In this document: one piece after another, positions 27,083 to 56,745 of the stretch
Layout: each line of letters opens with the position of its first letter
How positions within the stretch are numbered: the stretch's first letter is position 1
Translations under genes and position numbers: made by a program
From: Tetraselmis striata
Taxonomy: Eukaryota; Chlorophyta; Chlorodendrophyceae; Chlorodendrales; Chlorodendraceae
Assembly: GCA_006384855.1 (NCBI GenBank)
Contig: VCJN01000871.1
Span: 24,673 to 88,672, forward strand
Length of the DNA stretch: 64,000 nt
Direction: 5' to 3'
The notes under the pieces: generated by a model
The model's input: only the letters and a program-made list of their open reading frames with translations
The model's database searches: none
What the model was told of the DNA's origin: nothing

Positions 27083-27584
27083 GGGGTTACTCAAGGGGTG
27101 GGGGGTTGAGCGGTTGACGGTCGACCGACACCCCCGGGATTTCGCACGGCGCACCAGTTATTCCCTATCAGTACGACGCTCTCTCAACTTCAAGAAGCAA
27201 GTTGCCACATTCGAAGGCGGGGAGAAGCCGAGGTTGGCGGATGCAAGTCCCTGCGAGCCCGAAGTCGACATCATTGTCAAGTACTTGGACTCCGTGGACG
27301 CACACCACGGCAAAACCAACGGCAGCCACAGACGGGAGGCGAATCGCATATTCAAGTTCAACTACCCAGAAACCTACTAAACCAACAAAGGCATCCGCTA
27401 CACTTCGGACAAGGTGTGCATCGGCCTCTCACCGGAAGTATGCCGTTACATGTCGATAAAGCTCAACGAGGCGGGTCACACCGTCGTGGGGAAAACATCC
27501 ATGCACAAATCTCTGGACGGTGAGTGACAATATTTAATACCTCCCACACCATTATCCAAGGTAAGCTTACTGGGGATAGCTTCT

Positions 27585-28235
27585 ATCAGCGAGACGAAAT
27601 AGTTACGTCATCAGCGGGACGAAATAGATCTGTCATCAGCGGGACGAAATCGTTATGCCATCAGCGGGACGAAATAGGTATATCATTAGCGGGACGAACT
27701 CAGTCTGTCATCAGTAGCGGGACGAAATTGATCCGTCATCATCAACGGGACGAAATCGTTATCTCATCAGCGGGACGAAAAAGGTATGTCATCAGTGAAA
27801 CGAAATCGTTCTATCATCAGTGGGACGAAATAGCTCCGTCATCAGCGGGACGAAATAGTTTGTCATTAGTGGGACTAAATAGTCATGACATCTGCAGGAC
27901 GAAATCGTCCTATCATCAGCGGGACGAAATTGGTAGGTCTTTAGCGGGACGAAATTGTTATGTCACCAGCGGGATGGAATCGGTCTATCATCGCTGGGAC
28001 GAAATCGTTCTGTCATCAACGGGACGGAAAAAGTCTGTCATCAGTGGGACGAAATCGTTCTATCATCAGTGGGACGAAATAGCTCCGTCATCAGCAAGAC
28101 GAAACAGTTTGTCATCAGTGGGACTAAATAGTCATGTCATCAGCATGACGAAATCGTTCTATCATCAGCGGGACGAAATTGGTATGTCTTTAGCGGGACA
28201 AAATTGTTATGTCATCAGCGGGACGAAATCGTTCA
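27585..28235. repeat. 25-bp minisatellite array 2, intron 7 of copy 2
   Basis: About 26 diverged units with core GGGACGAAAT followed by CGTT/AGTT and TGTCATCAGC. The period is 25 bp, one base longer than the 24-bp arrays elsewhere in the window. It lies at the same intron position as arrays 1 and 5, showing that an array was present there before the copies separated. Confidence 0.93.
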
Positions 28236-30866: not shown

Positions 30867-31567
30867 TGTTATATACATACTCTACACTAATGTACTACGT
30901 ACTGTTGGAGCCGCCCAATGAGCGAATAGGAACTGACGATTGAGGCTTGCGAGAACGAGTACAAGCCAAGCGAAGTACTATAACGAGGACGACGAGGCGA
31001 CTGTGCGAGCGACTACAAGGGGACCCGTAAGTGCAGTCCTAATCCGCGGCCCGTCGGTATTTTAATAACACACAACTAACTACAGATATGATCCTAGCAC
31101 CTTCGTATCTCCGCATCACAACGGTAACATTCATTCGTTATGATGCACACACGAGAAGTTTCTCGCACATGCTATAGCGTTCTAAATGGTTCTAGTACCT
31201 ATTGCTAATACAGTAGTAAGGTAGCGCTCTATCTAACGCTAGGTGTCATCATCCGCTAGCATGTGACACCGGCGCGCACGACAATTGCGCTGCTGTTGGT
31301 AGGCAGGCGTGCGCACAAGTTACGCCCACGCTACGGGGACTCGTAATATTATTGTCATGCACTTACTGGTCCCCTCGCTCGGAGTCGTTCGTACTGTCAC
31401 CTCGTCGTCCTCGTACGAGTACTTTGCCTTCGCTTGTACTCGCACTCGCTGTGCTCGTACTTCGCTTGGCTTGTACTTGTTCTCGTACGCCTCAGCAGGC
31501 GTCCGTTCTTATTCGCTCATTTGTCGGCTCCAGCAGTACGTAGTACAACAGTGTAGAGTATATAACA
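30867..31567. mobile_element. 701-bp insertion with inverted ends and GTCCT target duplication
   Basis: Interrupts the final exon of copy 2. The ends read TGTTATATAC and GTATATAACA, and both flanks are GTCCT (30,862-30,866 and 31,568-31,572). The main copy has a single site at the matching position. Inverted similarity extends inward (CTCTACACT, GTACTACGTACTG and GGAGCCG on the left, their complements on the right). TG...CA ends and a 5-bp duplication suit a solo LTR, while the long inverted repeats suit a foldback element. No ORF of note. Confidence 0.8.
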
Positions 31568-31833
31568 GTCCTCATTGACAACCAGAAGACGCAAATCGCT
31601 GGGATGGAATCCATGATGAAGTCATGGTTCAAAGAGAAGCCATGGGACGAGACTTAGAGACTGCGTCCATATGACTTCGAGAAGTGGCCGGGGCTAGCCC
31701 GGCCGATGACCGCTGCAGAGGAGCAAGAAGAGCGTGCAGCGGCGGAGAAAAGGAGACTCCCGGCGGCAGAGCGCCGAGGGGATTATGTAGTCGAATAGTA
31801 CACTTTTCCACAAAATTAGCGGCTCGCATGTTT

Positions 31834-38987: not shown

Positions 38988-39326
38988 TGTCCCAGCTTGG
39001 ACATAGTTTCAGTAGCCCCCGACGCCACAAACTACTTGTACCCATCACGTTCCCCTCGCACTTATGTCTTGTCCCAGCTTGGACAGAGTTTCAGCCCCCG
39101 AAGGAATAAACTACTTGCAACCATCACGTTTCCTGCATTCTTTTGATTTGCCCATGCTTGGACGGATTTGTTTTCCCGACTTGGCACAAATGATCCATGT
39201 TCCCTATCAATCATTACTACTCGGCATTCATGTTACCTATCAGTCCCACTGCTGACCCCAAACCAGAATCTAGACCTAACCACAATGCACCGCGTGTCTC
39301 GGTGCAAAATATGTTGCTTTAACGTA
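38988..39326 (+). repeat. 3' subterminal region and decayed right end of element copy 2
   Basis: Aligns with 55,019-55,328: tandem blocks of TTTTGTCCCAGCTTGGACA followed by GTTTCAG and an ACTACTTG-CCATCACG segment, then CTAACCACAATGCACCGCGTG and GTGCAAAATATGTTGC. The last ten bases correspond to the terminal repeat of the giant element with several mismatches. Only 132 bp separate it from the left end of the giant element at 39,459. Confidence 0.8.
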
Positions 39327-39458
39327 GGCACGTCATTGCGACTTCTCAGCCTAGCAGTAAGTCTGGCGATTACACGGTAGGTACGAGGATTACACGCCCA
39401 TTCCCTGGGAAAATCGCGATTACGTGCCGTTACGGTGTAATTACGAGAAATCCGGGAG

Positions 39459-39485
39459 AACAGTAATGTAACCTATTTTGCACCG
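39459..39485 (+). repeat. Left terminal inverted repeat of the giant element
   Basis: 27 bp; matches the reverse complement of 55,302-55,328 except at two positions. A nearby internal direct repeat of ATTTTGCACCG (about 39,475 and 39,493) extends the terminal pattern. Confidence 0.85.
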
Positions 39486-39709
39486 TGGAATTCATTTTGC
39501 ACCGTAGGGTTTTTTTATACCCTAGTTCCCGGGTCTACTATCAGTACTTAAGACTCACTGGTGATGTAGCTTGGGTTTGTAGACCTTGGGTGCAGTGCAA
39601 CATTCATCAGCATGAAGGCCAGCCGCGACGCATATCCAATGTTGGTTTTGGAGCATTTTGTCCAAAATGGGACAAGATGAGGCAATGAAATCAATATTTA
39701 TTATGATTA

Positions 39710-39714
39710 TTACA
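39710..39714 (-). promoter_or_regulatory. TGTAA polyadenylation signal of the DUF7869-type gene
   Basis: TGTAA on the minus strand about 38 bases after the stop codon at 39,752, in AT-rich sequence just inside the left end of the element. Confidence 0.6.
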
Positions 39715-39751
39715 TCCTGCGGCTAGCTAGCCACAAGACGTTGCTGATAGT

Positions 39752-42700
39752 TTATTCGTTGAGCATCTCCAACTCAAGCAAGTCCTTCTTCGTGGCTGCG
39801 TTAAACTTGACGACTCCGCCGGGTTTGCGTTGCGCTGGGGTGGTTGACATGACGTGGACGCAGTTGTTTCGTGGCTGGCTGATTTGCCACCCAGTTTGCG
39901 CATATGTCTTCACGACTTGGACGCTTTTACCGTACCACTTCTTTCTGCCCATTGTGCCGTCCTCGTTGAACACCTCTCGACTTCCCGACGCGTCGTGGAT
40001 GGCCTTTGCGTACGATAGGGGGACGGCTTCAACAAGCTTCCAAGGAAGCGTCAGGCACTTCTCCCAGCTTTTGTTAACTGGCTTCTTCCCTCCTTTTGTC
40101 TGCGCGTACAACCATAGGGGCATGAGGGGTTTGCCCTTTGCATCGGCATGGAAGGGCTCGTATACGGCCACGGTCAACGTGTCTTCGGTAGTCTCGCGCG
40201 ACTTCACAAGCCCGATGACGAATCTCGACTCCCAATCACCAAGAGTTTCGGGACACTTGTCTTCCTCATGCACCTAACGATGGCCAAGACCGCGAGCTAT
40301 GTTAGTCCCGAGCGAGACACCACGCCATTTTTGTCCCAGTTGGGACAAAATAACAAGCAAGGTAGATGAACCAAATTGTTTTGTCCCGTAAAGGACAAAA
40401 ATGACAAACAATGGGACTCACATCGCAGACGTCGATGACAACGAGGTTCGAGCCCTTTGCATCGCTGGGCGATGTGTTGTCATGAAGCCTCTCCTTGGCG
40501 CCGGCGTGAACTCCCCGGAAGGCGTTGTCATCTTGAAGCATTTGAGCACGAACCTCGGCTTCAACGCGAGCGGCTTCGGCATTGTTGAGGTCTGCGTTGG
40601 TAGCCATCGTGTGACGTGCCTCGGTGGGCGCGGTCTGCCCGTGCTCGCGCAAGAAGTCGTCAACTTCCTCTTTCCGTTGCGGCCAGAACCCGGAGAAAGC
40701 TGCCGAAGGAGCAGTTTGCATCTCATCCAAGTCGTCGAGCAGATTCTTCCAGCTCTGGCGCTCGACTGGGGAGAAGTGCCACTGGACCGCCAGGTCCGTG
40801 ATGTACGACCTGACCTTCTTGAAATCATCCAAGTACCTCTGGACCTTCACCGCGTCGGCCTTCTTTTTGTCGCGGAAGCGTACAAAAGGGGCCGGCCCGC
40901 ACGATTCTCGGGCGTCCTAGTTGGCGCGCTCTTCAAGATCTGCACGGGCTCAGAAAGCGGTGTGTTGGACCACAAGGCGGTGCGCAACGAGCCGCCAGAC
41001 GCGGCGGCGTCGTCACGGGTGAACTCGAATTTGTGCGGCTTACTGATGTCCTGAATGTGGTCTTGGAAATGGGGCCTTAACCACTCAGAGAAGTCGAGGG
41101 AGAATGAGAGCTCAGCAATCTCCGGAGTGGGCGAGAATGCCTTCGCCACCAAGTCAAGAAAGGCCTCGATTGTGTAGGCGGAGCTGCGAGATAGCGCAAG
41201 ACTGATGCGGCTGAAGATCTGGTCAACCCGTTCGTGAGTGTGCCCGACAGGCAAGAAGACCAAATGAATGACGTCGCAGATGCCGATAGACACAAGCCAA
41301 TTGCAGAGGGCCGCCACGTTCCTATTCTTGTTCTCCCTGACGGTGTTCACTGTGAGATTCAGATGTGACATACGGGTGACGAAGCACTACTACTAGCGAC
41401 TATTCTTCATCCGTGAAGGCTGCTGCTGGTGGCGGCACGTCCATCCAGTTACGTGCGAGTACATCCGGCGTTATTGCCTGCGGGCGATAAATCTTTTTTG
41501 TCATCATTTTGGAAGTCGTACTAGCCCGGTGAAGTGTTACATGGCACTGACGTATAAGGTACAAGGTTGTCCGTGTAGTACCGGGTAGTACGCGATATAT
41601 TTATTAAGCCGGTACCGGGTATCTAGTACGAAACCGGGCGCGATGACGAGTCGTCCTGTGGATAACTACGACTATTAGTACATGGGAGCGCAAATCGCAG
41701 CCGTACGTATTTGGTAACACTGGGGAATTTTGTGTACAATATAGCTAGTACTGCTGAACGGGCCTGCCAGCCGTCCGATCAAAGGTCATCAGATGGGCGG
41801 TTTGGCTGCCATGTTTTGCCAAAGAGTGCTCACGTTACATAAATATTCGCGAGGGGGAGGGCGGGGGCAGGCAGCGGTTTGCCGAAGAATGTTTGAATTA
41901 CAATATTCGCGACAGCTGCCGTCGGGGCATGTGGCGGGGGGCGGGGGGGGGGGGGGGGGGGAGGCGGGCGGGCGTGGTCCCCCCCCCCCCCCCCCCCCCC
42001 CCCCGCCGCCCGCCGCTCCCGCCGGGGGAGTGAGGGGAGGGGGGTAAGGGGGCGGGGGCTACTGCTTGTTCTTGTTCTTGCGTGCCCGGGGGACCCTCCG
42101 CTTCGACGATCTCGCTGCCTCCGCCTCCGCCTGCGCCTCCGACTCCGCCTCCGACTCCGCGACCGTCAGTTTCTTACCTCGGCGCTTCTTCACTGGCCTC
42201 TTCCGCTTCTTGTCATCCGTCAGTGTCTTCACCACCCCGGGAGGCTGTGCCGTCGACGACGCCGCCATGAGCTTCCTTACCTTGGCGTCGGGACGCCCCC
42301 TGTGCCCAGACGCCCACAACAAGGCACAATCGTTTCGCCTTTAAGCGGCTGAGGATGCGGCCTCCTCGGCCACCACGAGTTGCGCCGCTGGCACTGTGGA
42401 AGCCTTGGCGTTGAGGTGGGCCTTACGGCGCTCCCGGACGAACCTGCGCGCGGCACAAGTTAGCCACGAGTGGGTGCGTGCTAATGTGAAGGGTGGAGTG
42501 CTTGGTTGCGCGCCCACCTTGTCACGCGTTTCCTCATGTCTTTCTCGTCCTCCTCGATGCCGGCGGCGCGGACACGCGAGACAACAAGGCTCGCCGCCCA
42601 CTTTTGCCCGGGGGGCGAGGTCTGCCATGGCGCTGTGAGCGGTGAAGGGTTGCGGAGTGCATTGGCGGTGCATAGAATAGCGTGTTGCTGGGGTTTTGGC

Positions 42701-43936
42701 TGCATCGGACGCCGTATTCCCATCAATCCGGCACGGAATGTCCGGTTTTCACACATTTGTGTGTTAATATAGTGTGAATATTACGCGTCTTTTACGCCGG
42801 GTGGATGGGCATCCGGCGTCCGATGCACCCCAATTATTTGCAGCACGCTACTCTACGCACCCCCAACGCACTCCGCAAGCCCCGCCTCCATCCGCGTCGG
42901 AAGCGATAGTAAGTGTTGTTGTGTGCGCACATCGTGACAACATTACACGGTGGCAATTGCAATTAGCGGTGGATAATGTGAAGGCGTTTTCGAAATCGAC
43001 AGAGAATGGGGCGGGGGTTGCGGAGTGCATTGGCGGTGCATAGAATAGCGTGTTCCTGGGGTTCTGGCTGCATCGGACGCCGTATTCCCACCCATCCGGC
43101 ACGGAATGTCCGGTTTTCACACATTTGTGTGTTAATATAGTGTGAATATTACGCGTCTTTTACGCCGGGTGGATGGGCATCCGGCGTCCGATGCACCCCG
43201 AATCTCACCAACACGCTACTCTACGCACCCCCAACGCACTCCGCAAGCCCCGCCTCTTTCCGCGCAGGTCCTACGTTCCATTGTATGTATATACATACGT
43301 ACATGTACTGCTCCGAAACCAGCCCAAACTTAATGAGTGCACAAGTGTAAATGGGGGGGGGGGGGGGGGGGATGTGGCGGCGGGGCATCCACTCACACAT
43401 ACCCCGGCGATGCATGACAGATATTACATGCCGTGGCGGGTCGGCGGGCCGACCCGGCGGGCCGACCCGGCGGGGGGGGGGGGGGGGGGCGTCTATTCAA
43501 CTACACGTGCGACAGTGTCGTTTCGTGGAGCAGTATATGTGCCCGGCCTCATTTATACCGCCCCCTACCTGCGCTGCATGGTCCACCCCTACGAATTACT
43601 TAGCACAAACCGCCATTACTTAATAGGAACCTAGCACAGCCAGGCTTATATGCCCGCTTTGCCGATCAACTTCTACGCACTTTCCGTCCCTCAACCGCCG
43701 GACATGGGGGTTAAGCCGCCAGCCTCGGCAGTTGCTTAGCCAGACTTGGCATCCCGTACCGTGTCCATGGCTTCGCAGCTCTGTCGCCGGCACACGCCGA
43801 GTCCGGCGCTTGATGCCGCGGGGTTGCGCACGCATGCACGCACGGTAATACGCCGCCGACCCCGCCACGCTTACTTCCACCATCTTCGCCAGCCGCAGCT
43901 TCGCACGCCGTTCCGCCGACATACGAAACGCACGAA

Positions 43937-43969
<33 letters not shown>

Positions 43970-46900
43970 TCCCCGCGTCATGTATAATATATTCGAGGCG
44001 ACTATGCGGGGCGCAGCACACGCCGCGGCGTGGGTCGGCGGAGCGGCATGCGGCGGGAGCCCTAATGGCCGGGCAGTATCCACACCCACACAAGCACCGC
44101 CGCTCACCTCCGACGCGGATGAACCACCTCCCAAAGGAAACATGCCGGTTGGTGGTAAGCGCAGCAGGCGTAGGGTGCCGGCGCCGGTACCGGTGCGACG
44201 GAGCTGTCGCGTCAGGAACCGCATCGCATGTGGAGCAACACATGGCGGTGCCGGCCCCACCTATGTCTAGGGCCACCTCCTCACAACACCCCGCCACGAC
44301 GGCGTCGGCCACCGCCGACGGCGCCGTTGCGGGGGGGGACGCCCTGCCAGGCGACGATGATGCGCCTGGTGCGCCGCGTCAGGAGGCGGAGGAGGCCGTG
44401 GTCGAGGCGACTGATCGGGCTGAGGGGGTTGTCGATGCGAGCGAGGCGTGGTTATGAGCATGCGTTGTCCATCTGGATTCTGATGTACGGAATCTTTCTA
44501 CCACGGTGTTGAATTTCCTGCATCGCAGACCATATTTCATCAGTCCATGGCTACCGGACAACCACGGCGAACCTATCGGGAGGCTAACGAGCTCACCTTC
44601 ATGATCGTTATCCATATTAGAGTGCACGTCGTGGACGAATCGTGGGGGATGGTGTTGGTGTAGTAGTAGATGTCGTCCGGGCGGTATCCGTCGTACTTCA
44701 CACAGGTAAGGTGGTACTTGAGGAGCATGTTGGGCTTCACAGTCTTGGGGATGCGAACCCGGTGAGGCAGCAGGGTCTTCGCGGAGTCCATGCTATCAAT
44801 TTCGAAGAAGAAGAAGTTTCCATGGCCAAGGCGCGACTGGAAGACGGCGTTGTTCAGATCCCTTCGTTCCTGGCGCACTCTCTCGAGGTGTACCTTCTAC
44901 TCAGCTCTGACCTGACGCCTCACCAGTTGCTGATGTTGACGGTGCACTTGACGTCACACCGGTTCCCCGGGTACTCTCTAAATGAAATCCTCCCGGGGTT
45001 TAAGCTGTGTATAGCGGGGTCACAATCCTAAGATGCAACTACCGAAACGAGCGCGAATTGTGATTAGTATCCGGTTGATACAGTCAAATATAACGTCATT
45101 TGATGAAAACTCAGAGCCCACGTGACCACCCGTCTCGCCAACCCATCCCGCCCCACCGATGCCAATCGAACACACCGGCCGGCACCATCACGCGCATACC
45201 GCGGTAGCAGCGCGCTAACATAGGCATATGGTGGCGTTCAGGTGCCTCGTCTTGTGTGTCTCGGGCAGGGATGGGGCTGGCGGCGGGATGATGAGGGAGG
45301 AGCGCGAGCGGTCACGTGCTAATATTACGCACGTAGCGCGTGCCACGTCGCCAAAAAGAGTTGCCAGCTATACATCTCGGATTTGAGACCCGTTTTCGGT
45401 CTTCAGAAACGAGTACCTACGCGAACCGGTGTGGTTCCTCTGGCGTCATGTCCTTTGTGCAAATCTCGCGAGCTTGGTCTCTGAGTGCTTTGCCCGCCGC
45501 GCATATGGGACAGTGGCTGAATCGCTTCACCTTCGGCGTGGTGACATCCGGGAAGTCTTCCTTCCAAGTCCGGCGGAAAGTGTCGAACGATGCGAGCTTC
45601 ACTTCGCTCTCGGTAGCCAAATCTACAAAGGGGCAGGGGCATGATAGGTCGGTATACAAATAAGAACTCATAATGCGAGACAGAAAAGTTCGGTCTAAAG
45701 TGGGTCGAAATAATTATATCGATAGTGGGTGAATAATTATGTAATCAGCAGGGCGAAACAATCTGTCATCAGTGTGACGAAACGGTATGTCAATAGTGGG
45801 ACAAAACCGTCTCTTAGCAGTGGGACAAGACGTTCTCTCTGCAGTGGGACGATATCGGCTAATTATGTGGGACGAATACTTTTGTGGTCGGTGGGACGAA
45901 ACGGTATGCCATGAGCGGTGCGAAACGTTATGTCATCAGTGGGACGAAATCGGTCCGGCGTCGGTGGGACTAAACGTTCTAGCGATAGCGGGACTAAACG
46001 GTTTGTAAATAGAGGGACGAAACGGTTTGTCATCAGCGAGACAAAACGACCTGTCGTCAGTGGGACGAAACGGTTTGTCATCCGCGGGACAAAACGGTCT
46101 GTCATCAGTGGGACGAAACGGTTTGTCATCAGCGGGACAAAACGGTCTGTAATTAGCGGGACAAAACGGTTTGTCATCAGTGGGACGAAACGGTTTGTCA
46201 TCAGCGGGACAAAACGGTTTGTCATCAGTGGGACGAAACGGCTTGTCATCAGCGGGACAAAACGGTTTGTCATCAGCGGGACAAAACGGTCTGTCATCAG
46301 CGGGACGAAACGGTTTGTCATCAACGGGACGAAACGGTCTGTCATTAGTGGGACGAAACGGTTTGTCATCAGCGGGACAAAAACGGTATGTAATTAGCGG
46401 GACAAAACGGTTTGTCATCAGCGGGACAAAACGGTTTGTCATCAGCGGGACGAAACGGTTTGTCCTCAGTGGGACGAAACGGTTTGTCATCAGCGGGACG
46501 AAACGGTCTGTCGTCAGCGGGACAAAACGGTATGTCATCAGTGGAACAAAATGGGCCTCACCACGGAGAATGGCGTTGTCGTCTTTGGCCCACGACTTGT
46601 AGTAGTAGTAGACGCAAATCTTGGTCATCCAGGGAGGTAGGTGCTTCTTGAAGGTCTCGCTGTTTCCGTCATGAAAAGGCATGATCTCGACGTGACCGAG
46701 GTCATCCGAGAAGAAGTGCTCGAGAAACATGCGCACATGCTCCCCCGGTCCGGTTTGTCTGCTCTCGTATTGCTTGCGCTGCCTGATGTACGTGGGTTCG
46801 TTATCCACCACCGACCGCTAGATCACGAGACGTCTGTGTTTCGAGACCTGATGCAAGGCCTCCCACGCACGCCCACACGTGTAGATGGGGCCCCGATGGT

Positions 46901-47387
46901 CGAAAGAGCGCAAGTAGCCACCGTGATCAAACATGTAATCGAACTTGTCGGATGCCGACTCGTAGCCACCCCTGAGAACCTGCGCGAGCCGGTCAAAGGA
47001 GCGGTTCTGATTGCCAGAGTATACGGTCAACGCACGGTCCAACACGGCATCAACGCGGGCCTCTCGGCACTGTGTGTATAGCTTGTGCACGCACTTGCGC
47101 GAACAGCATGGCGACTGCTCGCTAGCCTCCTTGGCGAGCATGAGGCGGATACAATCGCGAGAGGTGCGCTTGCTGATCAGAGACGAGACCTTGCCATTAT
47201 CGCTTTCGGCGACCTCATCGGAGCCCTTGCCCCACGTGTACTTCCTTTTCTCAGGCTCCTTACGATCACTCGCACGCGCGTCGCACTCACACGAGTACCC
47301 GCTGCGGCACAAACACGGCGGTAATGTAACTGTAGTGTCCGACGCGCCGGATCCTGGAGAAGAGGCCATGCTTTCGACCGCCGCCAT
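39752..47387 (-). CDS. DUF7869-type transposon protein gene, probably disabled
   Basis: Predicted exons in coding order: 47,387-46,563; 45,622-45,421; 44,896-44,597; 41,386-40,422; 40,273-39,752. The N-terminal part has a Cys pair region (CRSGYSCEC, CCSRKCVHKL). Exon 2 has FDTFRRTWKEDFPDV and the Cys pair SHCPICAAGKAL. Exon 3 has IDSMDSAKTLLPH and ends IPHDSSTTCTL. Exon 4 has VRENKNRNVAALCNWL then FLPVGHTHERVDQIFSRIS. This order is typical of DUF7869 proteins, common in eukaryotic transposons, whose Asp/His residues suggest a nuclease-like fold (inference). Defects: TAG at about 46,813, a frame change between about 40,880 and 40,920, and a phase conflict at the exon 2/3 junction. The first two could be removed by GT...AG segments of 30 and 29 bases, which would be unusually short introns. 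Intron 3 is 3.2 kb and carries insertions. Confidence 0.75.
41943..42004. repeat. G19 run followed by a C26 run
   Basis: G at 41,943-41,961 and C at 41,979-42,004 separated by a GC-rich spacer; on one strand these could pair as a hairpin. Lies in intron 3 of the DUF7869-type gene. Confidence 0.9.
42061..42640 (-). CDS. Hypothetical basic, Lys/Arg-rich protein nested in intron 3 of the DUF7869-type gene
   Basis: Three minus-strand stretches look like exons. About 42,640-42,521 encodes a segment ending AAGIEEDEKDMRKRVTR before GTGGGC. About 42,450-42,370 follows an acceptor (GCGCGCAG) with VRERRKAHLNAKAS. About 42,301-42,061, after CTGGGCACAG, encodes GRPDAKVRKLMAAS and a tail of alternating Glu/Ala (AESEAESEAQAEAEA) between Lys-rich blocks (KKRKRPVKKRRGKK, RARKNKNKQ), ending in TAG. 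The Lys/Arg blocks suggest nuclear targeting. It lies on the same strand as the host gene, and the 5' part runs into a foldback repeat. No family recognised; it may be cargo of a separate insertion. Confidence 0.35.
42647..42883. repeat. Foldback repeat, first copy
   Basis: About 237 bp with arms of about 88 bp that are imperfect reverse complements. The left arm begins GGGTTGCGGAGTGCATTGG, the right arm ends CCAACGCACTCCGCAAGCCC, and the inner part of each arm reads GCATCGGACGCCG or its complement. The AT-richer loop has TTTTCACACATTTGTGTG. Confidence 0.88.
43013..43252. repeat. Foldback repeat, second copy
   Basis: Nearly identical to 42,647-42,883, same orientation, 130 bp further on. The loop and much of both arms are unchanged. 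Confidence 0.88.
43253..44590. other. Rest of the long intron 3: homopolymers and competing frames, no gene assigned
   Basis: G runs at 43,353-43,371 and about 43,473-43,489 and a C31 run at 43,938-43,968. Frames on both strands are open across 43,620-44,460. A plus-strand stretch with PPPKGNMPVGGKRSRRR (about 44,125-44,180) and an Ala/Glu-rich end (about 44,380-44,457) looks mildly coding-like, but neither strand gives a coherent exon set. Confidence 0.4.
45725..46560. repeat. 24-bp minisatellite array 3, intron 1 of the DUF7869-type gene
   Basis: About 34 units, the longest array here. Units alternate between GGGACGAAACGG and GGGACAAAACGG cores, most followed by TTTGTCATCAGY; the left third is more diverged. 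Absolute orientation is the same as in arrays 4 and 5, so it is antisense to its own gene. Confidence 0.95.
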
Positions 47388-47937
47388 GCTCCAGCGTGGG
47401 GCGAGTGGGGGAGGGGGGGGGGGGTGAAGGACTGTGATCTGTGGTGAGGAAGAGTGACGGCCGATGACCGTTCTCGGACGCGCCGTTGACCGGGGTGCAT
47501 AATATCCAGCTACGGGTCAAAATAATTGAACCTGATGACTCAAATACCGTATTATTTCGTGTTTCCTTCGTATGTCGGTAATAGTTCTATACTAGTAAGT
47601 ACACCCGAATCCAGTCCAAGGAATATATCATCCCATGAAGGAATATTATTGCCACGCCACTGTACTCTCGTACCGTTATGACTCTCGAGTAGGGAATATT
47701 TTATCTTCCTGTAATAGCAATATATAGTCGCAGTAGTTAGCCCTGTATATTCGTCGCGGTGCAAAATACATGAACATGATGACGACGACGAGGTACACTA
47801 TAGTGTGCGCACGCGCGCCGTTGGTCCAGCAGGGGTCAGAGCGGCGGCAGACAGAAACCACGTCATTTCCACCTCTCCCTCACCGCTTCCCACCAAGAAA
47901 CCCGCTCATCTACCGCGTCAACCTACCTACCGCCAGT
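47388..47937. promoter_or_regulatory. Divergent intergenic region between the two transposon genes
   Basis: 550 bp between the start codons of two genes transcribed away from each other. It holds a G-rich tract at 47,409-47,423 and an AT-rich centre (about 47,520-47,780) with several TATA-like strings (GTATATTCG, AATATATAG). A bidirectional promoter is inferred from geometry; no specific element can be proven. Confidence 0.45.
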
Positions 47938-50900
47938 ATGGCGCCGAAGAAGAACGAGCCTGCCAAGGACAAGGAAGACAAGGACGACGCCACCCCAGGT
48001 GAGTTGCGCGCGCGTACAGTAGCTGCCTGCCTGCTCGACGCGTGATACAGCCAGATCTAGCGAGTTCGGTTAGGGTTCCCTGTAGAAGCGGTGTAATCTA
48101 GGACCACTCGAGGTGTAGGCAGACGAGTGGGAGCGTACAATAGCCGCCTGCCTCCTCGACGCGTGATACGGCCAGATCTAGCGAGTTCGGTTAGGGTTCC
48201 CTGTAGAAGCGGTGTAATCTAGGACCACTCGAGGTGTAGGCAGACGAGTGGGAATAGAAACCCAAACGAGACGAGGGGCATCAGGGTCTTGCACGGTAGT
48301 ATTACGTCCCATCGAGGCAGCTGCGGCAAGTTCAGTAAGGATGCTAATTGGTGGTGGGAGGGGGTGGGGGTGAAGAGCGGCCAGGTGGAACCTGTGCATT
48401 TACTCCGCCGTAAGGAGTGGTTTAATATTAGTGTGAAGCGCAGTACTTAAAGACATTACATTATTAAACCGCGGTACATAATGTATTGAAAATATGTTTG
48501 TCATCAGTGGGACGAAACGGTTTGTCATCAGTGGGACGAAACGGTTTGTCATCAGTGGGACGAAACGTTCTGTCATCAGTGGGACGAAACGTTCTGTCAT
48601 CAGTGGGACGAAACGGTATGTCATCAATGGGACGAAACGGTCTGTCATCAGTGGGACGAAACGGTTTGTCATCAGTGGGACGAAACGGTTTGTAATCAGT
48701 GGGACGAAACGGTTTGTCATTAGTGGGACGAAACGGTATGTCATCAGTGAGACGAAACGGTCTGTCATTAGTGGGACGAAACGGTCTGTCATCAGTGGGA
48801 CGAAACAGTTTCTCATCAGTGGGACGAAATGGTCTGACAGAATATGATATTTATAGGTCGAAGATCCAAGCGGACATCAAAACCTACTGAGAAAGCAAAA
48901 GAATTCGATGCGCTCGGAGCGCTAGTCGGGAGAAAACACAAGGCGCCATCTTCTGTGCCCGAGCAGCCGGCGGCGAAGAAGAGCCGTATAGCCTCAGCTT
49001 CTGCAGCTAGAGCGGGCGATGAGGCATCAGGTAACCCCTGGAAACCGAGCATTTTAGGAGGTAGAGTGCCGGCTTACGGCACGCACTCGCAAGGAGAAAG
49101 ATCGGCCGCCGCTATTTTGACGGCCCGAATCAAAAGCGGCCAGGTCCTCTCAGATGCTCAAATGCAGACAGCGCGAAGGCGAATCGATTACGAAAAGCTC
49201 ATGCAAGCTTACTATCAATCAGGTCCTTGCCTCTCCAATCATATGATTTTTGTGAGTGCACTGTGTCATATCGACATTGTTTGAAATCATGTGTGTTGAC
49301 AGGTTCGAAAGGACGCGCACATGAGCCAGTAGCGACTAAAGCTTCAAAGGAATCCAAGGGAAAAGAAAAGTTTCAGAACGATTGTGACTCCAGGTAATTG
49401 TGACTGAAAGTATCAATCCCTGCCTTTGTGAGTGCACTGTGTCATATTTACATTGTTTGAAATCATGTGTGTTGACATGTTCGAAAGGACGCGCAAATGA
49501 GGACGCGCACATGAGCCATTAGCGACTCAAGCTCCAAAGGAATCCAAGGGAAAAGAAAAGGTTTCAGAGACGATTGTGACTCCAGGTAATTGTGATTGAA
49601 AGTATCAATCCCTGCCTTCTCACCCCCTTCGATTAATTTCTCGCCAACGAGTTATCTGACGTTCCAACAGGTCGTAAATTGGCGCAGGCAACCGCGTCGG
49701 AAGTAGCTGGTAAATCGGGATCCCCAGGTACAAAAATCACGTTTGACTTTGATGGTGTATGGCGATACCATTCAGTAGTTAATCTTGACGCCCATTGCAG
49801 GTGTGTTGAGTACTCTCTACTCATTCTTTATAGGTTCCCCGAATCAAGCCTCTTCTTTGTCTAAAGGCCCATCTCAAGTACCGGAAACAGAGCATGAGCC
49901 TGAAATAGAGCACACTGAGCCGGAGCCGGAGCCCGAGCCGGAGCCTGAAACAGATTCCAATGAGCCCGAGCCAGAGCCTCGGCATGAGCCTGAAACTGAG
50001 CCCACTCAGATGGAGCCGGAGCCGGAGCCCGAGCCGGAGCCCGAGCCCACTCGGCTTGACCCGGAGCCTGAACCGGAGCCAGAGGCCGAGCTCGAGACAT
50101 CAGCGCCGACTACCGGGCAAGCGTCCGGTTCTGGAGCCTCTGGTTCTCGAGCCCCTATTGCCGAGGCTCCGAGAAGGGTTCCTGAATTCCTCAGTATGTG
50201 CACGGATGAAGAGGTCTTCGGCACAGAGGAAGAACAGAGGCAACGGGCGGCAGAGAAGCGTAAGCAAGCTCTCGACATCACCGGCACTCCTGGACCCGAT
50301 AGGAAGACATAGCTGATGACGGTCGCCTCTTACGACGACTTCTTTGACGAGAGGGACGGATCCCAAGAACATGACTCCTACAGCGACTTCACTTCGCGGA
50401 GCTGGACTATCCACTGGTTCAAGAACACAAGTGCTGAGGTACAGATCTATTTGTACATCGAATTGCACAAGGCGAGCCTGCTGACTGGCAAGGACTTTTT
50501 CGATGATCCGGAGGGGCCATTTCTCGCGTGTATCGGAAAGATCAAGGACGTCGAGCTGGACTCGGCCGGAAACTACGGGGTGAGTAAAGCGTATATATAG
50601 TCTCTGAATTCGTGTCAATTTCGTGTATCAATAAGTATAAATATTCTTATGCTTGTTACCGCAGATATCTCTTGAACCTTATCGCTTGACACTGCACAAG
50701 GAGTTCAGGATCGATGTCAGCTTTGAGAGGTTGCTACTCCACGCGATCCAACCGCCACTCTTCTTCCAGCCGCGGTTCCAGTCTTACTACGCATGGACTT
50801 TGGTCGAGCGCAATGTGCTGTCGCAGGCGCTGACAGGTTTCGCGTCTGGTCAGATTGACATCGATGACTTGGCTAACATTGACAAGGATTTTAAGAACGC

Positions 50901-53900
50901 GCTTCCATTCGTCGACACGTTGGCCGTCCCGCCGGCCTTGAATGGCTTCCACCACACCGGTGCCGTCGACTGGATCTCTTACGGCCACCTCAGAGTCGAG
51001 ATTGCTGATCCAGAGGTGAAGACAACTCACGGTGGCGACATCAACATGTTATACGCCGACAGAGTCAACCTCGTCCTCGACAAGGATACGGGGCTGCCTT
51101 ACATTTTCAGCTTCCCATCCGATAACTTCGTCGCACCGCCGCCAAAATTTGAATTCCGTTCCCCAAAGCTGCAAGACTGCAATATGGTGGCGCAAAGCTA
51201 CAAGGTAAAAGCCTATCGCGACATGTTGTACCTATCCGGATCAAATATGTGTAGACAAATCTAAATCAATACACAATGCAACTTACTGACATCCATTTCT
51301 TGCATTTGTTATTCAGAGAAATCCTTCTCTATCCGCCGAGAATTTCTCAGTGTCCTTTCCAGTGGTTGCCAAGAGTATGACCTCAAATTTCCGCGTAGTG
51401 TATGAGCCCCTCGCTCTGACCATGGCCAACTTCAAGGAGCTAGTCGCAGCACACGAAGGCGGGGAGAAGCCGAGGTTGGCTGATTCAAGTTCCTACAAGC
51501 CAGAGATCGACGTAATCATCGAGTTTCTGGGCGCCCACGGCGTGCGTCAAACCAACATCGACGGCAGCCACAGACGGGAGGCGAAGCGCATGGTGAAAGA
51601 TAATTATCCGGATATCTACAAAGCCAACAAAGGCATCCACCTCACGTCGGACAAGATGTACATCGGCCTCTCGCCGGAAGTCTGCCGCTACATGTCTATG
51701 AAGCTCAACGAGGCGGGTCACACCGTCGTGGGAGACACGTCCATGCACAAACTCCTGGTGAGTGACCCATTCTCCCAAATTATTATTAAGCTGACCGTGG
51801 CAGCAAATAGGCGTAAAGTGTGACAAAAGTCGTTCTGTTGTCAGCGGTTTAAAAATATGTGTCAGTGGGACGAAACGGTCTGTCAGCAGTGGGACGAAAC
51901 GGTCTGTCATCAGTGGGACGAAACGGTCTGTCATCAGCGGGACAAAACGGTCTGTCATCAGCGGGACAAAACGGTATGTCATTAGTGGGACGAAACGGTT
52001 TGTCATCAGTGGGACGAAACGGTCTGTCATCAGTGGGACGAAACGGTTTGTCATTAATGGGACGAAACGGTCTGTCATCAGTGGGACGAAACGGTTTGTC
52101 ATTAATGGGACGAAACGCCTGTCATCAGTGGGACGAAACGGTTTGTCATCGAGGTACAATCGTTCGGAATTTTGAAATCGGTGCAATTGTTTCTGCAGAA
52201 CCTTCGCAGATGTTTCAAGAGCTGGTATGCAGAGCAGGATGCAAATCGCCCCGGCTTTAGGGCACTTCCGCAAATCAGAGTCGTGAAGGAGTTCAAGAAG
52301 TATGAAGTTCTTCAAGTTGAACTTGAGAAGATCGGCATCAAAGATGAGAAGAGCAGCGAGTTCTCAAATTTGATTGACCTCTGCTCGCGCCCACGACGGT
52401 AAGCTGCGTACATGATGAAAATTTATCGTGTTGTTAATGCTGCTAGATTCTGACAATTGATTTGCGCAGTGTTTTTGAGCCCCTTGAGCAGATTTCTGAA
52501 GCCTACCGGCATGTGGACCTCGGGGTTCGAGGATGGGACGAAGCCAGCACCAAACTCGGAGACCTATTTGTGTACTACCAGCAAGAACTCGATAGAGTCG
52601 AGCGTCTCAATTGCGGCAGGCAACTCACCCAGAAGGAAGTGAGGAAGGTTTACGAAGCAATTCGGAAGCCTATCAATGCAATCCTCGATAATAAGAAGTA
52701 CGGCTTCGGCAAAGACAGAGCTCACTTCCGAGTCGCCCTCATGGAGGTAAGTTGTGACCGACCCCAGTGTCAATCACATGGAATACTATCATTGATTCCT
52801 TTCTCCGTACTGAAGTTTGTTTTTCGACCCAGGATGTTGGCTTTGGACCACATGCGCCCTGGCTAGACGAGCCGTCTCTTGCCAAGCAGAGCGACAGCGC
52901 GGATCTCCCTGTGGGCCAGATGTACCTGGTGGTTGGACTGCTCATCCAAGGCGAGCACAGTGTGACCCCGAGCCTCTACGAGCTGGTGGATGACATAAAG
53001 CATGCCGGCGACAATGGCCCCATGGCTGTTACGCACACCAACGCGGAGTGGCTCGCGATGATTGAGACCTGGAGGTTTCGCGATCTCTTGCGTCGAGCAA
53101 GCATCAAGCTCATGAATGTCATTGACACGGCCAAGGGCAGGGAGACAATCCAACTGCTGACGCCGGACGAACCGGCCAGGAATTGGGGGAAATATCTCTC
53201 GGACCACATCATCGATTGGGATGTGCAAGACAAAGTGTCGGATGAGCAAGCGGCCGCTCGCCTTGACGCCATCACCAAGTTCCGAGCCAAGGTTGATGAC
53301 CTCGGCCCAACAGGCTTCCCCAAAAAGTTCCAGGATTTGTTCAAAGGTGCTCATCGCTCCGGTCCTTTGATGGTCTTGCTGACCCCTCCTGCCAGATGGG
53401 GGGACATGAAATCCGCCGATTGTCTCACACCACTACCGGTTCGAGAGCATATCGCGGCCATCAACACCACCATCAGGAGTGAGGCATATCGCATCAAGAA
53501 TCAGATGCCGGACTTGGTCATCTCCGTCTTCACAGAGTTTGCTCTTTTGGCATGTGCGCCGGAGCTTATCGCGGTTTCCGCTCCGAATGTTTCTGATGAG
53601 CTGTGGATATCGATGAAGGTAACTAAGATCTTGTGCAATCACAAATGCTCTTCAATCAAATTTTCGTTGTGAGCTATTAACCCGAATCTGTTTTCTAATA
53701 CACACAGGCCTCGGCACTTCCGGTGATGCCCAAGGGCCATGAGGTCGACAAGGATGACAAGGTGTGGTTGAACACGGAGCTTTGCAAGACTTGCATTGTG
53801 GAGGGGAACTTCAAGGCTCCCGCGACAAAACAAGCCGTCGCGGACGCCATGTCGGCAGTTCGTGCCAGAAAGGCAACAGTCTTCATTGCCGACGCGCTTT

Positions 53901-54985
53901 TCGGAGCTGGTTCGCACACATGGGACTCGAAGGATGCTGCGTGGGGTACGGACGACTTCAACGACGTGTTTGCTTTCGCCAGGCAAGACAACCCTCCACA
54001 ACCCCGGTGCGTAGATGACTGTGCTTTCATTTATCTCATTCCCGATTTTCCCCCGCGCAGGCAGTTGAATATCCTGACTGGATCTTCTGACGTCCACACT
54101 GGTCTCGATGGGTGCCATTTCTTCATTCACCTCTCGGACCAGCAACTTGGATCCGCAATCACAGCCCTTCAAAAACAAGCTGAGGACCTCATCTATCACG
54201 TCCTGACTTGGGCCAAGGATTGCGGGATGAAGATGGGCAGCTCTCTGCGTCACGACGCTGAGTACTACCTCTACGTCAGGAAGCCCCCGCCAAGCATCGT
54301 AGCTGACAACATCCGTTTCGATGATCCCCGAAGGTGAGATTTGATCCGTGGAAAATAGCCGGCTTGTATTTATTTACTCGCTAAGCCGGTTGTGCCTTTT
54401 CAGGTTCTCTACATCCATCATGTTGGGTCACTTCAAAGACAGTTCGAAATTGAAGGACGAGAACAGACAGACGGTGAACAAGTACCAAAAGCCTATCGCT
54501 CTCTTCGCCAAGCACCTTAAGATGGCGGCAACAGACGGGACAACAATCGTCGACGTCACAGCCGGAACCGGGACAACCGCGGTGCGTGAGGGGTGCAACC
54601 CGGGTGAGTGTCTTAATGGGATCAACATAAACAAATTAACGCCTTGTGCGGTTTGCCACGCCTTTTCCAGGTCGCTGCGGCCTTTTCCGTGTGGTGGGGC
54701 CATATGGATCATAGCTACTCGTTCACACACAGGAACTTGAAGACGATCCTCATTGACAACCAGAAGACGCAAATAGCTGGGATGAAGTCCAGGATGACCT
54801 CATGGTTCAAAGAGAAGCCATGGGACGAGACTCAAAGACTGCGTCCAAGTGACTTCGAGAAGTGGCCGGATCTACCCCTTCCAATGACCGAGTTAGAGGA
54901 GCGGGAAGAGCGTGCAGCGGCGGGGAAGAGGAGGCAAGAGGCGGCAGAGCGCCGAGGGGATTATGTGATCGAAGATGATATGTAG
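47938..54985 (+). CDS. Large transposon protein with C-terminal beta-class DNA methyltransferase-like domain
   Basis: Predicted exons: 47,938-47,998; 48,857-49,223; 49,303-49,393; 49,671-49,727; 49,834-50,580; 50,665-51,204; 51,317-51,757; 52,199-52,398; 52,470-52,746; 52,833-53,618; 53,708-54,006; 54,061-54,333; 54,404-54,581; 54,671-54,985. The start is an ATG before a Lys/Asp-rich [15 protein letters not shown]. Exon 5 has a Glu-Pro repeat tract (49,910-50,090). Exons 6-10 are unassigned. Exon 11 has [20 protein letters not shown], the place and context of methyltransferase motif IV (ADPPYG...WD). Exon 13 has [12 protein letters not shown], like motif I FxGxGTT, followed in exon 14 by [10 protein letters not shown], like the acidic end of the next strand. 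IV before I is the beta-class order. The catalytic PP-Y is replaced by A-L-F, so methyl transfer is doubtful; nucleic-acid or SAM binding may remain. One in-frame TAG lies at 50,310, and exon 3 may be out of phase. Ends [12 protein letters not shown]. Confidence 0.75.
48495..48840. repeat. 24-bp minisatellite array 4, intron 1 of the methyltransferase-like gene
   Basis: About 14 very regular units of GGGACGAAACGG plus TTTGTCATCAGT type. Upstream in the same intron, an approximately 110-bp direct repeat is present (about 48,025-48,130 and 48,140-48,250; shared GCCAGATCTAGCGAGTTCGG). Confidence 0.96.
49249..49600 (+). repeat. Tandem duplication covering a small exon, ~178-bp period
   Basis: The block starting TTGTGAGTGCACTGTGTCAT occurs at 49,249 and 49,427. 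Each copy has the Lys-rich SKGKEK exon. Copy one keeps the acceptor GACAG but has lost two bases near its end. Copy two has lost the acceptor (GACATG) but keeps a downstream frame ending VSETIVTP, with phase matching the next exon. Confidence 0.8.
51858..52155. repeat. 24-bp minisatellite array 5, intron 7 of the methyltransferase-like gene
   Basis: About 12 units mixing GGGACGAAACGG and GGGACAAAACGG cores. It ends about 45 bp before the acceptor TTTCTGCAG of exon 8 (52,198). Confidence 0.96.
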
Positions 54986-55018
54986 TACAATTCCGCAAAA
55001 TTAGCCGCTCATATGTTT

Positions 55019-55195
55019 TGTCCCGGTTTTGACAGAGTTTCAGCCCCGGACGGCACAAACTACTTGTAGCCATCACGGCCCCCGCTCTTTTTTGTCCCAG
55101 TTTGGACAGAGTTTCAACCCCCGATGGCGCAAACTTCTTGTAACCATCCCGTTTCCTTCACTCTTTTGATTTGTCCCTGCTTGGACGGAATTGGT
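55019..55195. repeat. Subterminal TTTTGTCCC repeats, right end of the giant element
   Basis: Three imperfect tandem blocks of about 60 bp: TTTTGTCCCGGTTTTGACAG, TTTTGTCCCAGTTTGGACAG and TTTGTCCCTGCTTGGACGG, the first two followed by GTTTCARCC and a CTTGTAACCATC-like segment. Related inverted units at the left end lie at 39,656-39,678 (TTGTCCAAAATGGGACAAG) and 40,328-40,400 (TTTTGTCCCAGTTGGGACAAA). Confidence 0.8.
55139..55143 (+). promoter_or_regulatory. TGTAA polyadenylation signal candidate of the methyltransferase-like gene
   Basis: TGTAA about 154 bases after the stop, within the second subterminal repeat block. The first block has TGTAG at the same place. Confidence 0.45.
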
Positions 55196-55301
55196 TTCCC
55201 CGACTTGGCACAAAATGAACCAACCGGCATTCATATTAGCTTTCAATCCCACTGCTGCCCCAAACCCTAATTTAGACCTAACCACAATGCACCGCGTGCC
55301 T

Positions 55302-55328
55302 CGGGGCAAAATAGGTTGCATTACTGTT
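55302..55328 (-). repeat. Right terminal inverted repeat of the giant element
   Basis: 27 bp ending CATTACTGTT; partner of 39,459-39,485. Only two bases (GG) separate it from the next inverted-repeat element at 55,331. Confidence 0.85.
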
Positions 55329-55330
55329 GG

Positions 55331-56745
55331 CGGCCGTTTAGGCAGCGATCCAGTAATAGAAAGCCATGGGTAGGCGACGTTCCGTTATATTCAACCAGCA
55401 AATTGCCGAACCATCAATTGCAGAATTCTGCAACAGTCATTGAAGGCCGGTTACGGAATTTCCAACCAGTTGTATATATAATTACATGAGCTAGACGGAA
55501 CATTCAAGAAATCCACACAGAAATCCAGAAGGAAATCCAGAAGGAAATCCAGCTACGGGCCAACAGAGGCAGGAACCGCCATGGTAGCCTCCGACCAGGC
55601 ATCGCCACCAGCCAGCCGCCGCTCCACGCAGTAGGGACGCTCTCCCCAGCACACAATCCCGGGCCACTCCAATAGCGGCACTAGGCCGAATGTAATGTGA
55701 AGGCGCCGACAGGAATGGAGCGTCGAAGTTGAGGTCTCGCAGCAAGGAGCGGAAGTGGGGGGGGTCCAACCCAGAACGGGGCGCCACGGGCGTGCAACAG
55801 ACGCATGCCACCCAACGCCAGATGCGTCGCCAGCTCGGTCGCGTCCTTTTCCGCCAAACGTAGAACGCCTTCCCCAGCACAACATCCCGGGCCACTCCAA
55901 TAGCGGCACTAGGCCGAATGTAATGTGGAGGCGCCGACATGACAGGAAGGGAGAGGGTGCTCAAAGAACAGCGAACATGGACTTGACCGGACCAGCAGCG
56001 ACGTAAGACGCCGGTGTCCAGCGCACGTTGTTCCGCCCAGCGCCAGATCCGCCGCCAGCTCGGCCGCGTCCCCTTCCGCCGAAAGTAGGACTCCCTTCCC
56101 AGCACAACATCCCGGGCCACTCCAATAGCGGCACTAGGCCGAATGTAATGTGGAGGCGCCGACAGGACAGGAAGGGAGAGGGTGCTCAAAGAACAGCGAA
56201 CATGGACTTGACCGGACCAGCAACGACGTAAGACGCCGGTGTCCAGCTCACACTGCTCCTCCGCGGCAGTGGCAGCACGGGCGGGGCCAAGGCAACCAAG
56301 GCGCCACCCGTGCACAATCCCCGCCCCCATCCCCAGCCGGGGGTGGAGGCGGAGGAAGGGCCCGCGATTCCGAGGGCCGAGGACGGTCGTCGGGCCCGCC
56401 CAGGCGGCGGTGGGTGGGTGGGCAAATCGAAGAGTCACCGTCTAAAACATTGCCATCAAACACCCGGGTTTGACCCCGGTCTGATTTCACTGTAACTCCG
56501 GCCTGATTTCACCACTCCGGTCATGTACCGGAGTGATGAATTACAAAAAAGGCCGGTAGTAATCCACCGAAGTCAGTGCCGGGTATTTTGATGGCAGTGT
56601 TTTAGACGGTGATCCAACAGTGTTGGAAATTCCGTCACTAGCCTTCAATTAGTTTTGCGAAATGCTTCGGCAATTTGCTTGATGACTATAACAGAGCGTC
56701 GCCTACCCAGGGCTTTCCGTAACTGGATTGCTGCCTAAACGGCCG
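55331..56745. mobile_element. Inverted-repeat element C (1,415 bp) with internal tandem repeats
   Basis: Ends CGGCCGTTTAGGCAGC and its exact complement, with imperfect inverted similarity for about 135 bp (left to about 55,470, right from about 56,609; shared GGGTAGGCGACG and AGCAAATTGCCGAA). The interior holds three copies of a ~221-bp unit (landmark CACTCCAATAGCGGCACTAG at about 55,676, 55,896 and 56,117). A related fragment is at 17,026-17,370 in the opposite direction. Minus-strand frames of 100-315 codons follow the repeat and are not taken as genes. Non-autonomous; superfamily unknown. Confidence 0.8.

Follow-up and report, generated by a model that had tools for sequence, protein, structure and literature searches.

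Do the two divergent genes that lie between a pair of inverted repeats in the green alga Tetraselmis striata belong to one transposon, and if so, of what kind? The question is raised by a stretch of 64,000 nucleotides (contig VCJN01000871.1 of assembly GCA_006384855.1, positions 24,673 to 88,672 of the forward strand), referred to here as the window. Its initial annotation described a 15.9-kb transposon with terminal inverted repeats (TIRs) that carries a DUF7869-type gene and a methyltransferase-like gene. We searched the alga's own assembly (224 Mb, 2903 contigs) for the ends and the genes of this element and used the copy on contig C154 (12,574 bp, with the target duplication GTTC) as a yardstick. 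The window element is one damaged member of a family of large DNA transposons present in many copies in T. striata.

Ends, size and mobility of the family

The window copy spans positions 39459-55328 (15,870 bp, AACAG...CTGTT) and is a broken member of a family whose copies mostly measure about 12.5 kb. Its 27-bp termini, one at the left or DUF7869 end (39459-39485, plus strand) and one at the right or methyltransferase end (55302-55328, minus strand), are inverted repeats that agree at 25 of 27 positions, as initially annotated. The left sequence recurs in other loci that hold a DUF7869 end. A 22-letter terminal pattern, searched with up to three mismatches, matched the assembly 664 times (339 forward and 325 reverse), while the reversed pattern used as a control matched once (1 forward, 0 reverse). 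With a match count far above chance, the 27-bp termini are the ends of a repeat family. The loci L001-L068 yielded 63 end rows from 61 distinct places, with five of the 68 loci lacking an end. The base preceding ACAG was A in all 63 rows, so the element ends in AACAG...CTGTT. The inverted ends of the family read AACAGTAATG.. and, within the repeat that they have in common, are not identical: most DUF7869 ends read AATTTAACC..CCGTGGAATTCATTTTGCACCG and most methyltransferase ends AATGCAACC..CCGAGGCACGCGG.

Both ends could be paired on 23 contigs among the fetched loci, and sizes and duplications were counted over these 23. Eighteen of the paired copies measured 12.1-12.8 kb, with a full range of 9.2-15.9 kb. 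The 15.9 kb first proposed as the unit of the element is therefore the size of an enlarged copy. The initial annotation had also pointed to a target duplication of fixed length and to empty sites as support for transposition, and both were found. An exact 4-bp duplication flanked 11 of the 23 pairs (GTTA, GTTC, GCCA, TACT, ATAT, ATGT, GTAA, GTAC, ATAG, ACAT and ATTT), where about 0.1 would be expected at 1 in 256. We then joined the flanks of these 11 copies, leaving out one of the two duplicated words, and queried the genome with them (40 of 3742 candidates scored). Three of the 11 joined flanks gave uninterrupted 99% matches with no length change: those of the copies on C154 (38 places, a high-copy host repeat), C54 (one place) and C2772 (one place). 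Such places represent empty sites, in which the 4-bp target occurs once. Among 27 DUF7869-end loci (of 29 tried, L040-L068), the median pairwise identity was 99.4% (range 98.4-100%), a low divergence which indicates that the spread was recent. The family is real, high-copy and recently mobile.

Two inserts account for the greater apparent size of the window copy. The first, of 3.1 kb (41348-44463), lies in exon 3 of the DUF7869 gene, is absent from C154 and has GTT at both edges; inverted and repeated blocks are present within it. The second, of 0.48 kb (44955-45433), lies in exon 2, is likewise absent from C154 and has CACACCGGTTC close to one of its ends and GAACCGGTGTG close to the opposite one; at about 480 bp it looks like a small TIR element. 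Exon 3 has an additional 1-base gap relative to C154. Together, the two inserts and the gap mean that the transposase gene of the window copy is broken.

Several observations concern the surroundings of individual copies. About 114 bp to the left of the window element, positions 39300-39345 match the methyltransferase-type end of an older, diverged copy. The methyltransferase gene that would go with this end stops at 31795, and about 7 kb, much of it with a strong excess of C, has seemingly been inserted between them. To the right, a 225-bp tandem repeat at 55811-56251 resembles, by eye, the flank of the C1721 copy; it is a host repeat that serves as a target elsewhere. The C2683 copy adjoins, again by eye, the methyltransferase end of a different copy, which is diverged. 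Contig G000:C42 has three ends (L004, L005 and L023) with near-identical flanks, as would result if a segment containing the element had been duplicated, and not from separate insertions.

Two divergent genes within one pair of ends

The exons of both genes were mapped in the window by blastn with the C154 exons. The DUF7869 exons occupy the minus strand (39752-47387) and the methyltransferase-like exons the plus strand (47938-54985). As described initially, the genes are divergent, contain introns and end just inside the termini, the stop codon of the DUF7869 gene lying about 0.3 kb inward of the left end and that of the methyltransferase-like gene about 0.34 kb inward of the right end. Searches of the assembly scored 150 of 704 candidates for a methyltransferase exon and 150 of 634 for a DUF7869 exon. 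A DUF7869 match lay within 20 kb of 83 of the 150 scored methyltransferase matches, where about four would be expected. The two were divergent in 78 of these 83 pairs, and 53 of the 78 had 9.1-10.1 kb between the match starts. In public gene models, 7 of 17 methyltransferase-like proteins had a neighbouring locus number among 52 DUF7869 proteins (for example, TSEL_018301/018302, 010644/010645 and 043409/043410). The methyltransferase-like gene was at the expected position in all eight terminus loci fetched with a search pattern that favours that end. Of the 100 terminus places listed, 57 had a scored match of either gene less than 20 kb inward of the terminus (50 adjoining it and 7 deeper), and the other 43 had no gene match among those scored. 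The initial annotation had considered that the genes might never be linked in the genome, or that the termini might be unrelated to them; the genome contradicts both. The two genes belong together within one pair of ends.

The remaining 67 of the 150 scored methyltransferase matches had no scored DUF7869 partner within 20 kb. These may reflect unscored candidates, contig ends or decayed copies. They would also fit an element made of the ends and the DUF7869 gene only, into which the methyltransferase-like gene was inserted once as a separate element and then carried along. The third methyltransferase-like copy in the window (27186-31795), which has methyltransferase exons and no DUF7869 match in the window, fits this too. 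We consider this origin highly improbable, as only 150 of the 634 DUF7869 candidates were scored, 78 of the 83 near pairs share the divergent layout, and the methyltransferase-like gene ends beside the terminus in eight of eight terminus loci.

In C154, the DUF7869 gene model is open, with four exons encoding 956 amino acids, and matches PF25273 with an E-value of 1.1e-43 (149.5 bits against a curated cut-off of 26). Annotated models (EukProt, jgi Tetstr1) are 100% identical to this protein over the searched residues 60-700. In the window, all on the minus strand, exon 1 lies at 46562-47387 (97.6% identity to the C154 exon); exon 2 lies at 44597-45622, in two pieces (98% and 100%) split by the smaller insert, and encodes the first acidic motif, FEIDSMDSAK; exon 3 lies at 40422-44517, is split by the larger insert and encodes the PF25273 core with the motifs DNTVRENKN and GHTHERVD; and the last exon lies at 39752-40273 (98.3% to C154). 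The PF25273 match in the window covers 40850-41386 (E 5.6e-33). Proteins from Riccia and from ENA align with the DUF7869 protein and keep the acidic first motif, DNTxxENKN and GHTHxxxD. To judge from this alignment, the conserved acidic motifs are a candidate DDE-type site. Protein P0051 of Riccia sorocarpa (PF25273), for example, shares a core with the motifs IDxMD, LDNTVRENKN and VGHTHxxVDQIF but has, in addition, a reverse-transcriptase zinc-binding match. The ratio of nonsynonymous to synonymous substitution rates (dN/dS) between the C154 and window copies of the gene was 0.34. Outside Tetraselmis, relatives made up 2 of 52 matches (7995 candidates scored, in a search that needs shared 5-residue words and may miss distant kin). 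No convincing relative was found in the PDB, where one match had an E-value of 0.7, and no viral relative of the DUF7869 exon was found in IMG/VR at that search's sensitivity.

The methyltransferase-like gene model is also open in C154, with 14 exons encoding 1516 amino acids and a C-terminal N6_N4_Mtase domain. Its 13 introns all close with AG; 12 of them open with GT and the remaining one with GC. The 14 exons mapped in the window (47938-54985, plus strand) lie at 47938-47998, 48857-49251, 49516-49585, 49671-49727, 49834-50579, 50665-51204 and 51317-51757 (exons 1-7), and at 52199-52398, 52470-52746, 52833-53618, 53708-53982, 54061-54333, 54404-54581 and 54671-54985 (exons 8-14), the first 8 bases of 53708-53982 being extrapolated. 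Two joins are less certain, namely the GC-AG intron after FAFAR and the third exon's acceptor, for which the reading frame was the guide. A continuous frame at 53699-54334 was rejected as intron read-through, with length changes there in the copy alignment, and the GC-AG intron was chosen for this region; the annotated models put the junction elsewhere, and these models (EukProt, jgi Tetstr1) differ from the C154 model in the methyltransferase exons. The stretch CHFFIH occurred in none of 105 homologous proteins compared. Tandem duplications were observed at exon-intron borders at 48012-48253 (121-bp) and 49249-49618 (about 180-bp). Both are also present in C154 (4781-5020 and 6421-6778), so they are older than the split of these two copies.

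The window holds three copies of the methyltransferase-like gene, as the initial annotation had counted. Besides the element's own gene at 47938-54985, a second copy, on the plus strand at 1-3334, is cut by the window start and has a 24-bp array at 123-652. The third copy, also on the plus strand at 27186-31795, is more diverged (synonymous divergence, dS, of about 0.59 to C154 in the coding part) and has a 24-25-bp array at 27585-28233. Across the whole gene, dN/dS was 0.51 between C154 and the window element, and 0.58 and 0.56 between C154 and the two other window copies; these figures include dead copies and imperfect alignments. Values below 1 over the whole gene indicate that the protein sequence has mattered. 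When only the domain was compared, the ratios between C154 and those two other copies were 0.55 and 0.57. No relative of the protein was found outside Tetraselmis among 17 and 36 matches (7994 and 589 candidates scored) in a 5-residue-word search that may miss distant kin.

The methyltransferase-like domain and the 24-bp arrays

The N6_N4_Mtase-like domain is encoded by the exons at 53708-54985 (plus strand), with FIADALFG at the motif IV position. The spliced C154 protein matched PF01555 at 28.4 bits and the domain alone at 32.6 bits, against a cut-off of 26.7; the window's single exon, at 22.1 bits, fell below it. The Pfam and PHROGs matches begin at about the strand GCHFFIH and extend through the glycine-rich motif I, which is present and lies inside both, while motif IV lies outside the profiles. 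No viral relative of the domain was found in IMG/VR at that search's sensitivity. The genome's best N6_N4_Mtase match (150 of 259 candidates scored) was a 637-amino-acid frame at G000:C1010:99804-100724. Alone among the 104 matches listed, it begins at profile position 1 (1-203); it may belong to the host or be a contaminant.

The genome also contains a second methyltransferase family, a paralogue of the first (L090/L091, G000:C761:87500-91300), with DSNY at motif IV. Of its 483 candidates 150 were scored, and nine of these loci were identical over 195 amino acids. No scored DUF7869 match lay within 20 kb of any of its 30 best matches, and so it seems to be part of another element or gene. A phage collection queried with this paralogue returned eight records, all ordinary methylases.

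A 24-bp unit, GTTTGTCATCAGTGGGACGAAACG, is repeated in three arrays within introns of both genes of the element. In the window these lie, all on the plus strand, in intron 1 of the DUF7869 gene (45740-46541) and in introns 1 (48496-48833) and 7 (51862-52150) of the methyltransferase-like gene. In C154, the arrays have 18, 29 and 17 units, all in one orientation and none in the opposite one, despite the divergence of the genes. A head-to-tail dimer of the unit gave 7320 (overlapping) matches in the genome and its control none, and the core TGTCATCAGNGGGACGAAA is conserved in the third copy in the window, the more diverged one. Single related palindromic sites (TTTTGTCCC..GGGACAAAA) occur outside the arrays, near both ends of C154. 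We counted eight such sites in C154, where 2.6 would be expected (maximum of seven in 200 simulations), two of the eight being unlike the others by eye; this excess is no more than suggestive. From the sequence, the 24-bp arrays are candidate binding sites of the second protein.

A candidate ParB-like region in this protein is encoded by the exon at 51317-51757 (plus strand), which contains GSHRREA. It matched the paralogue weakly (E 0.001) and had no match in Pfam, NCBIfam or PHROGs. Its counterpart in the second family is the exon with GNHRREA, and by their motifs both stretches are ParB-like candidates. Between the GNHRREA exon and the next long open frame, the second family has its own array of 10.8 units of 25 bp, with another sequence; the dyad symmetry of this unit had a P-value of 0.006. 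In the second family, a different protein thus goes with an array of its own at the corresponding intron, which suggests that proteins and arrays evolve together as pairs.

These features could form a self-recognition system. A ParB-like, methyltransferase-fold protein might bind or mark its own sites, namely the three one-orientation arrays and the palindromes near the ends, either against silencing by the host or for synapsis. We put this forward tentatively and regard it as rather unlikely.

Proposed mechanism and relation to known transposons

We consider it probable that the family is an autonomous-type class II DNA transposon with a unit of about 12.5 kb, a 4-bp target duplication, a DUF7869 protein as its putative DDE-type transposase and, less surely, a methyltransferase-fold accessory protein that would recognise the element's own DNA. 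The ends, copy number, gene linkage, target duplication, empty sites and open gene models in C154 were observed directly; the steps of transposition can be proposed as follows. The DUF7869 protein, as a putative DDE-type transposase, would cut at the ends and would insert the element by 4-bp staggered joining. With less certainty, the second protein may recognise the element's DNA through its middle region, with the 24-bp arrays as candidate sites, and its methyltransferase-fold domain may mark this DNA or hold it open to transcription or transposition. By analogy with the TET enzymes of fungal transposons, it may thus be an anti-silencing accessory.

A number of results weigh against this reading. 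Twelve of the 23 end pairs have no exact duplication, among them the window copy (flanks GGAG and GGCG), although three of the 12 are off by a single base. Structure predictions had mean predicted local distance difference test (pLDDT) scores too low to use, 35.9 for the DUF7869 protein (A1, 18 rows) and 29.4 for the methyltransferase-like protein (A3, 22 rows). The exon joins were deduced from sequence. For the methyltransferase domain by itself, C154 compared with the window copy had a dN/dS of 0.91 (26 differences). For the self-recognition part, the 24-bp unit has no significant dyad symmetry (P 0.69), gene conversion could also keep the arrays alike, and no ParB domain was found by profile in Pfam, NCBIfam or PHROGs for the element's protein, or in Pfam for that of the second family, whose PDB matches were only at chance level. 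Finally, active beta-class DNA methyltransferases have (D/N/S)PP(Y/F/W) at motif IV; the element's protein reads DALF, not DPPY, with both prolines missing.

The place of DALF in the domain was set by a chain of alignments. The C761/L090 paralogue aligned to residues 41-243 of the 291-residue domain (31% identity, E 2e-23), with ADSNYG opposite ADALFG, and the same paralogue aligned to the Dam methylase of Synechococcus phage S-BM3 (24%, E 4e-10), with TDPPY opposite ADSNY. DALF thus occupies the DPPY place, with the acid and the aromatic residue kept and the prolines lost. Through the paralogue, the phage enzyme shares the motif order of the element's protein, with IV first and I last; it differs in having DPPY in place of DALF and in lacking the roughly 1200 extra N-terminal residues found here. 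Among the annotated proteins, 35 share the flanking context KAT(V/F)F; DALF stands in 34 of them, and the block is missing from the other (P0090). Of the 106 collected proteins overall, 40 contain DALF. Without the prolines of motif IV, catalysis may be lost, and activity is doubtful.

The protein could therefore be catalytically dead and do no more than bind DNA or give structural support as a partner to the transposase; inactive partners are known in methyltransferase heterodimers. The presence of DALF in nearly all proteins with the flanking context and the alignment chain to the phage DPPY enzyme, which sets both DSNY and DALF at motif IV, fit such a role. Against it stand the retention of motif I and of the acidic and aromatic ends of motif IV, as well as the long gene model open in C154 and the dN/dS below 1 across the whole gene. 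We regard a dead partner as a serious possibility, if somewhat short of even.

Which superfamily the element belongs to was weighed from the duplication length, the layout and the protein matches. Sola elements have a 4-bp target duplication. Membership of Sola1, alongside a giant element of Ectocarpus, would fit this length and also the position of the accessory gene opposite the transposase strand, as in Sola1-1_Ec32 (PMC12477816). On duplication length and layout we rate this filing as quite possible, though less probable than its opposite. Academ (AcademX) is an improbable home. Its duplications of 3 or 4 bp would include the length found here, but in PMC10045372 its lineages are tied to an encoded helicase or nuclease, and Pfam gave no match of that sort, at E-values up to 1, for either of the spliced proteins. 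Ginger1, also with a 4-bp duplication according to the same paper, was rejected, as the DUF7869 protein has no integrase-core Pfam match. The spliced protein likewise has no KDZ match (PF18758, E up to 1), and KDZ was rejected. A genome search with PF18758 also returned nothing; its controls were silent too, so it has no bearing on absence. Ginger1 transposases have an integrase core of the retroviral type.

The initial annotation had proposed an undescribed family of large DNA transposons. A large green-algal TIR transposon with both genes in one pair of ends is what we found, but the methyltransferase partner is not without precedent. Sola1-1_Ec32 of Ectocarpus (PMC12477816) is a giant algal TIR DNA transposon with a ParB-like and methyltransferase gene opposite the transposase, whose product has an N4/N6 methyltransferase domain. 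There, the element is 21.5 kb, the long product has 1104 amino acids (1516 in the C154 model) and the ParB-like domain is named, where we have a weak candidate. The transposase there is filed as Sola1, a possible relative of DUF7869, and the available text makes no mention of repeat arrays. That paper cites further work on algal transposon accessory proteins with ParB and methyltransferase domains (refs 50 and 51, a 2011 Elsevier chapter and Petroll et al. 2025). We liken the element's protein to these by description. The 2011 chapter is reportedly by Iyer et al. The gene pairing thus already has an algal precedent, and the element is a variant rather than a new kind.

Methyltransferase genes were also noted in 2013 in two mariner elements, Mariner-2_PGv and Mariner-1_OLpv (PMC3627910). 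According to PMC12730594, TET/JBP genes occur in fungal DNA transposons and are discussed as a counter to silencing. What the two have in common is that a DNA transposon brings along an accessory enzyme of the kind that modifies DNA bases; the differences are that TET/JBP enzymes are dioxygenases, not methyltransferases, and that the transposases belong to other superfamilies. N6-methyladenine (6mA) is linked with transcriptionally permissive chromatin in several eukaryotes, including Chlamydomonas (PMC12695648). In the open-licence literature we found no use of the word DUF7869 and, from titles and the starts of abstracts, no description of the Tetraselmis family. We have met no earlier description of the combination of a DUF7869 transposase, the DALF motif and conserved arrays.

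With its ends, duplication, empty sites and gene models described, this recently mobile transposon places DUF7869, a Pfam family that is so far uncharacterised, in a well-delimited mobile element. It is also one more case of an algal element whose accessory gene resembles those for base modification. The arrays give a concrete, testable proposal for the recognition targets of the accessory protein. With its high copy number, the family would also be suited to asking whether transposons escape silencing by marking their own DNA.

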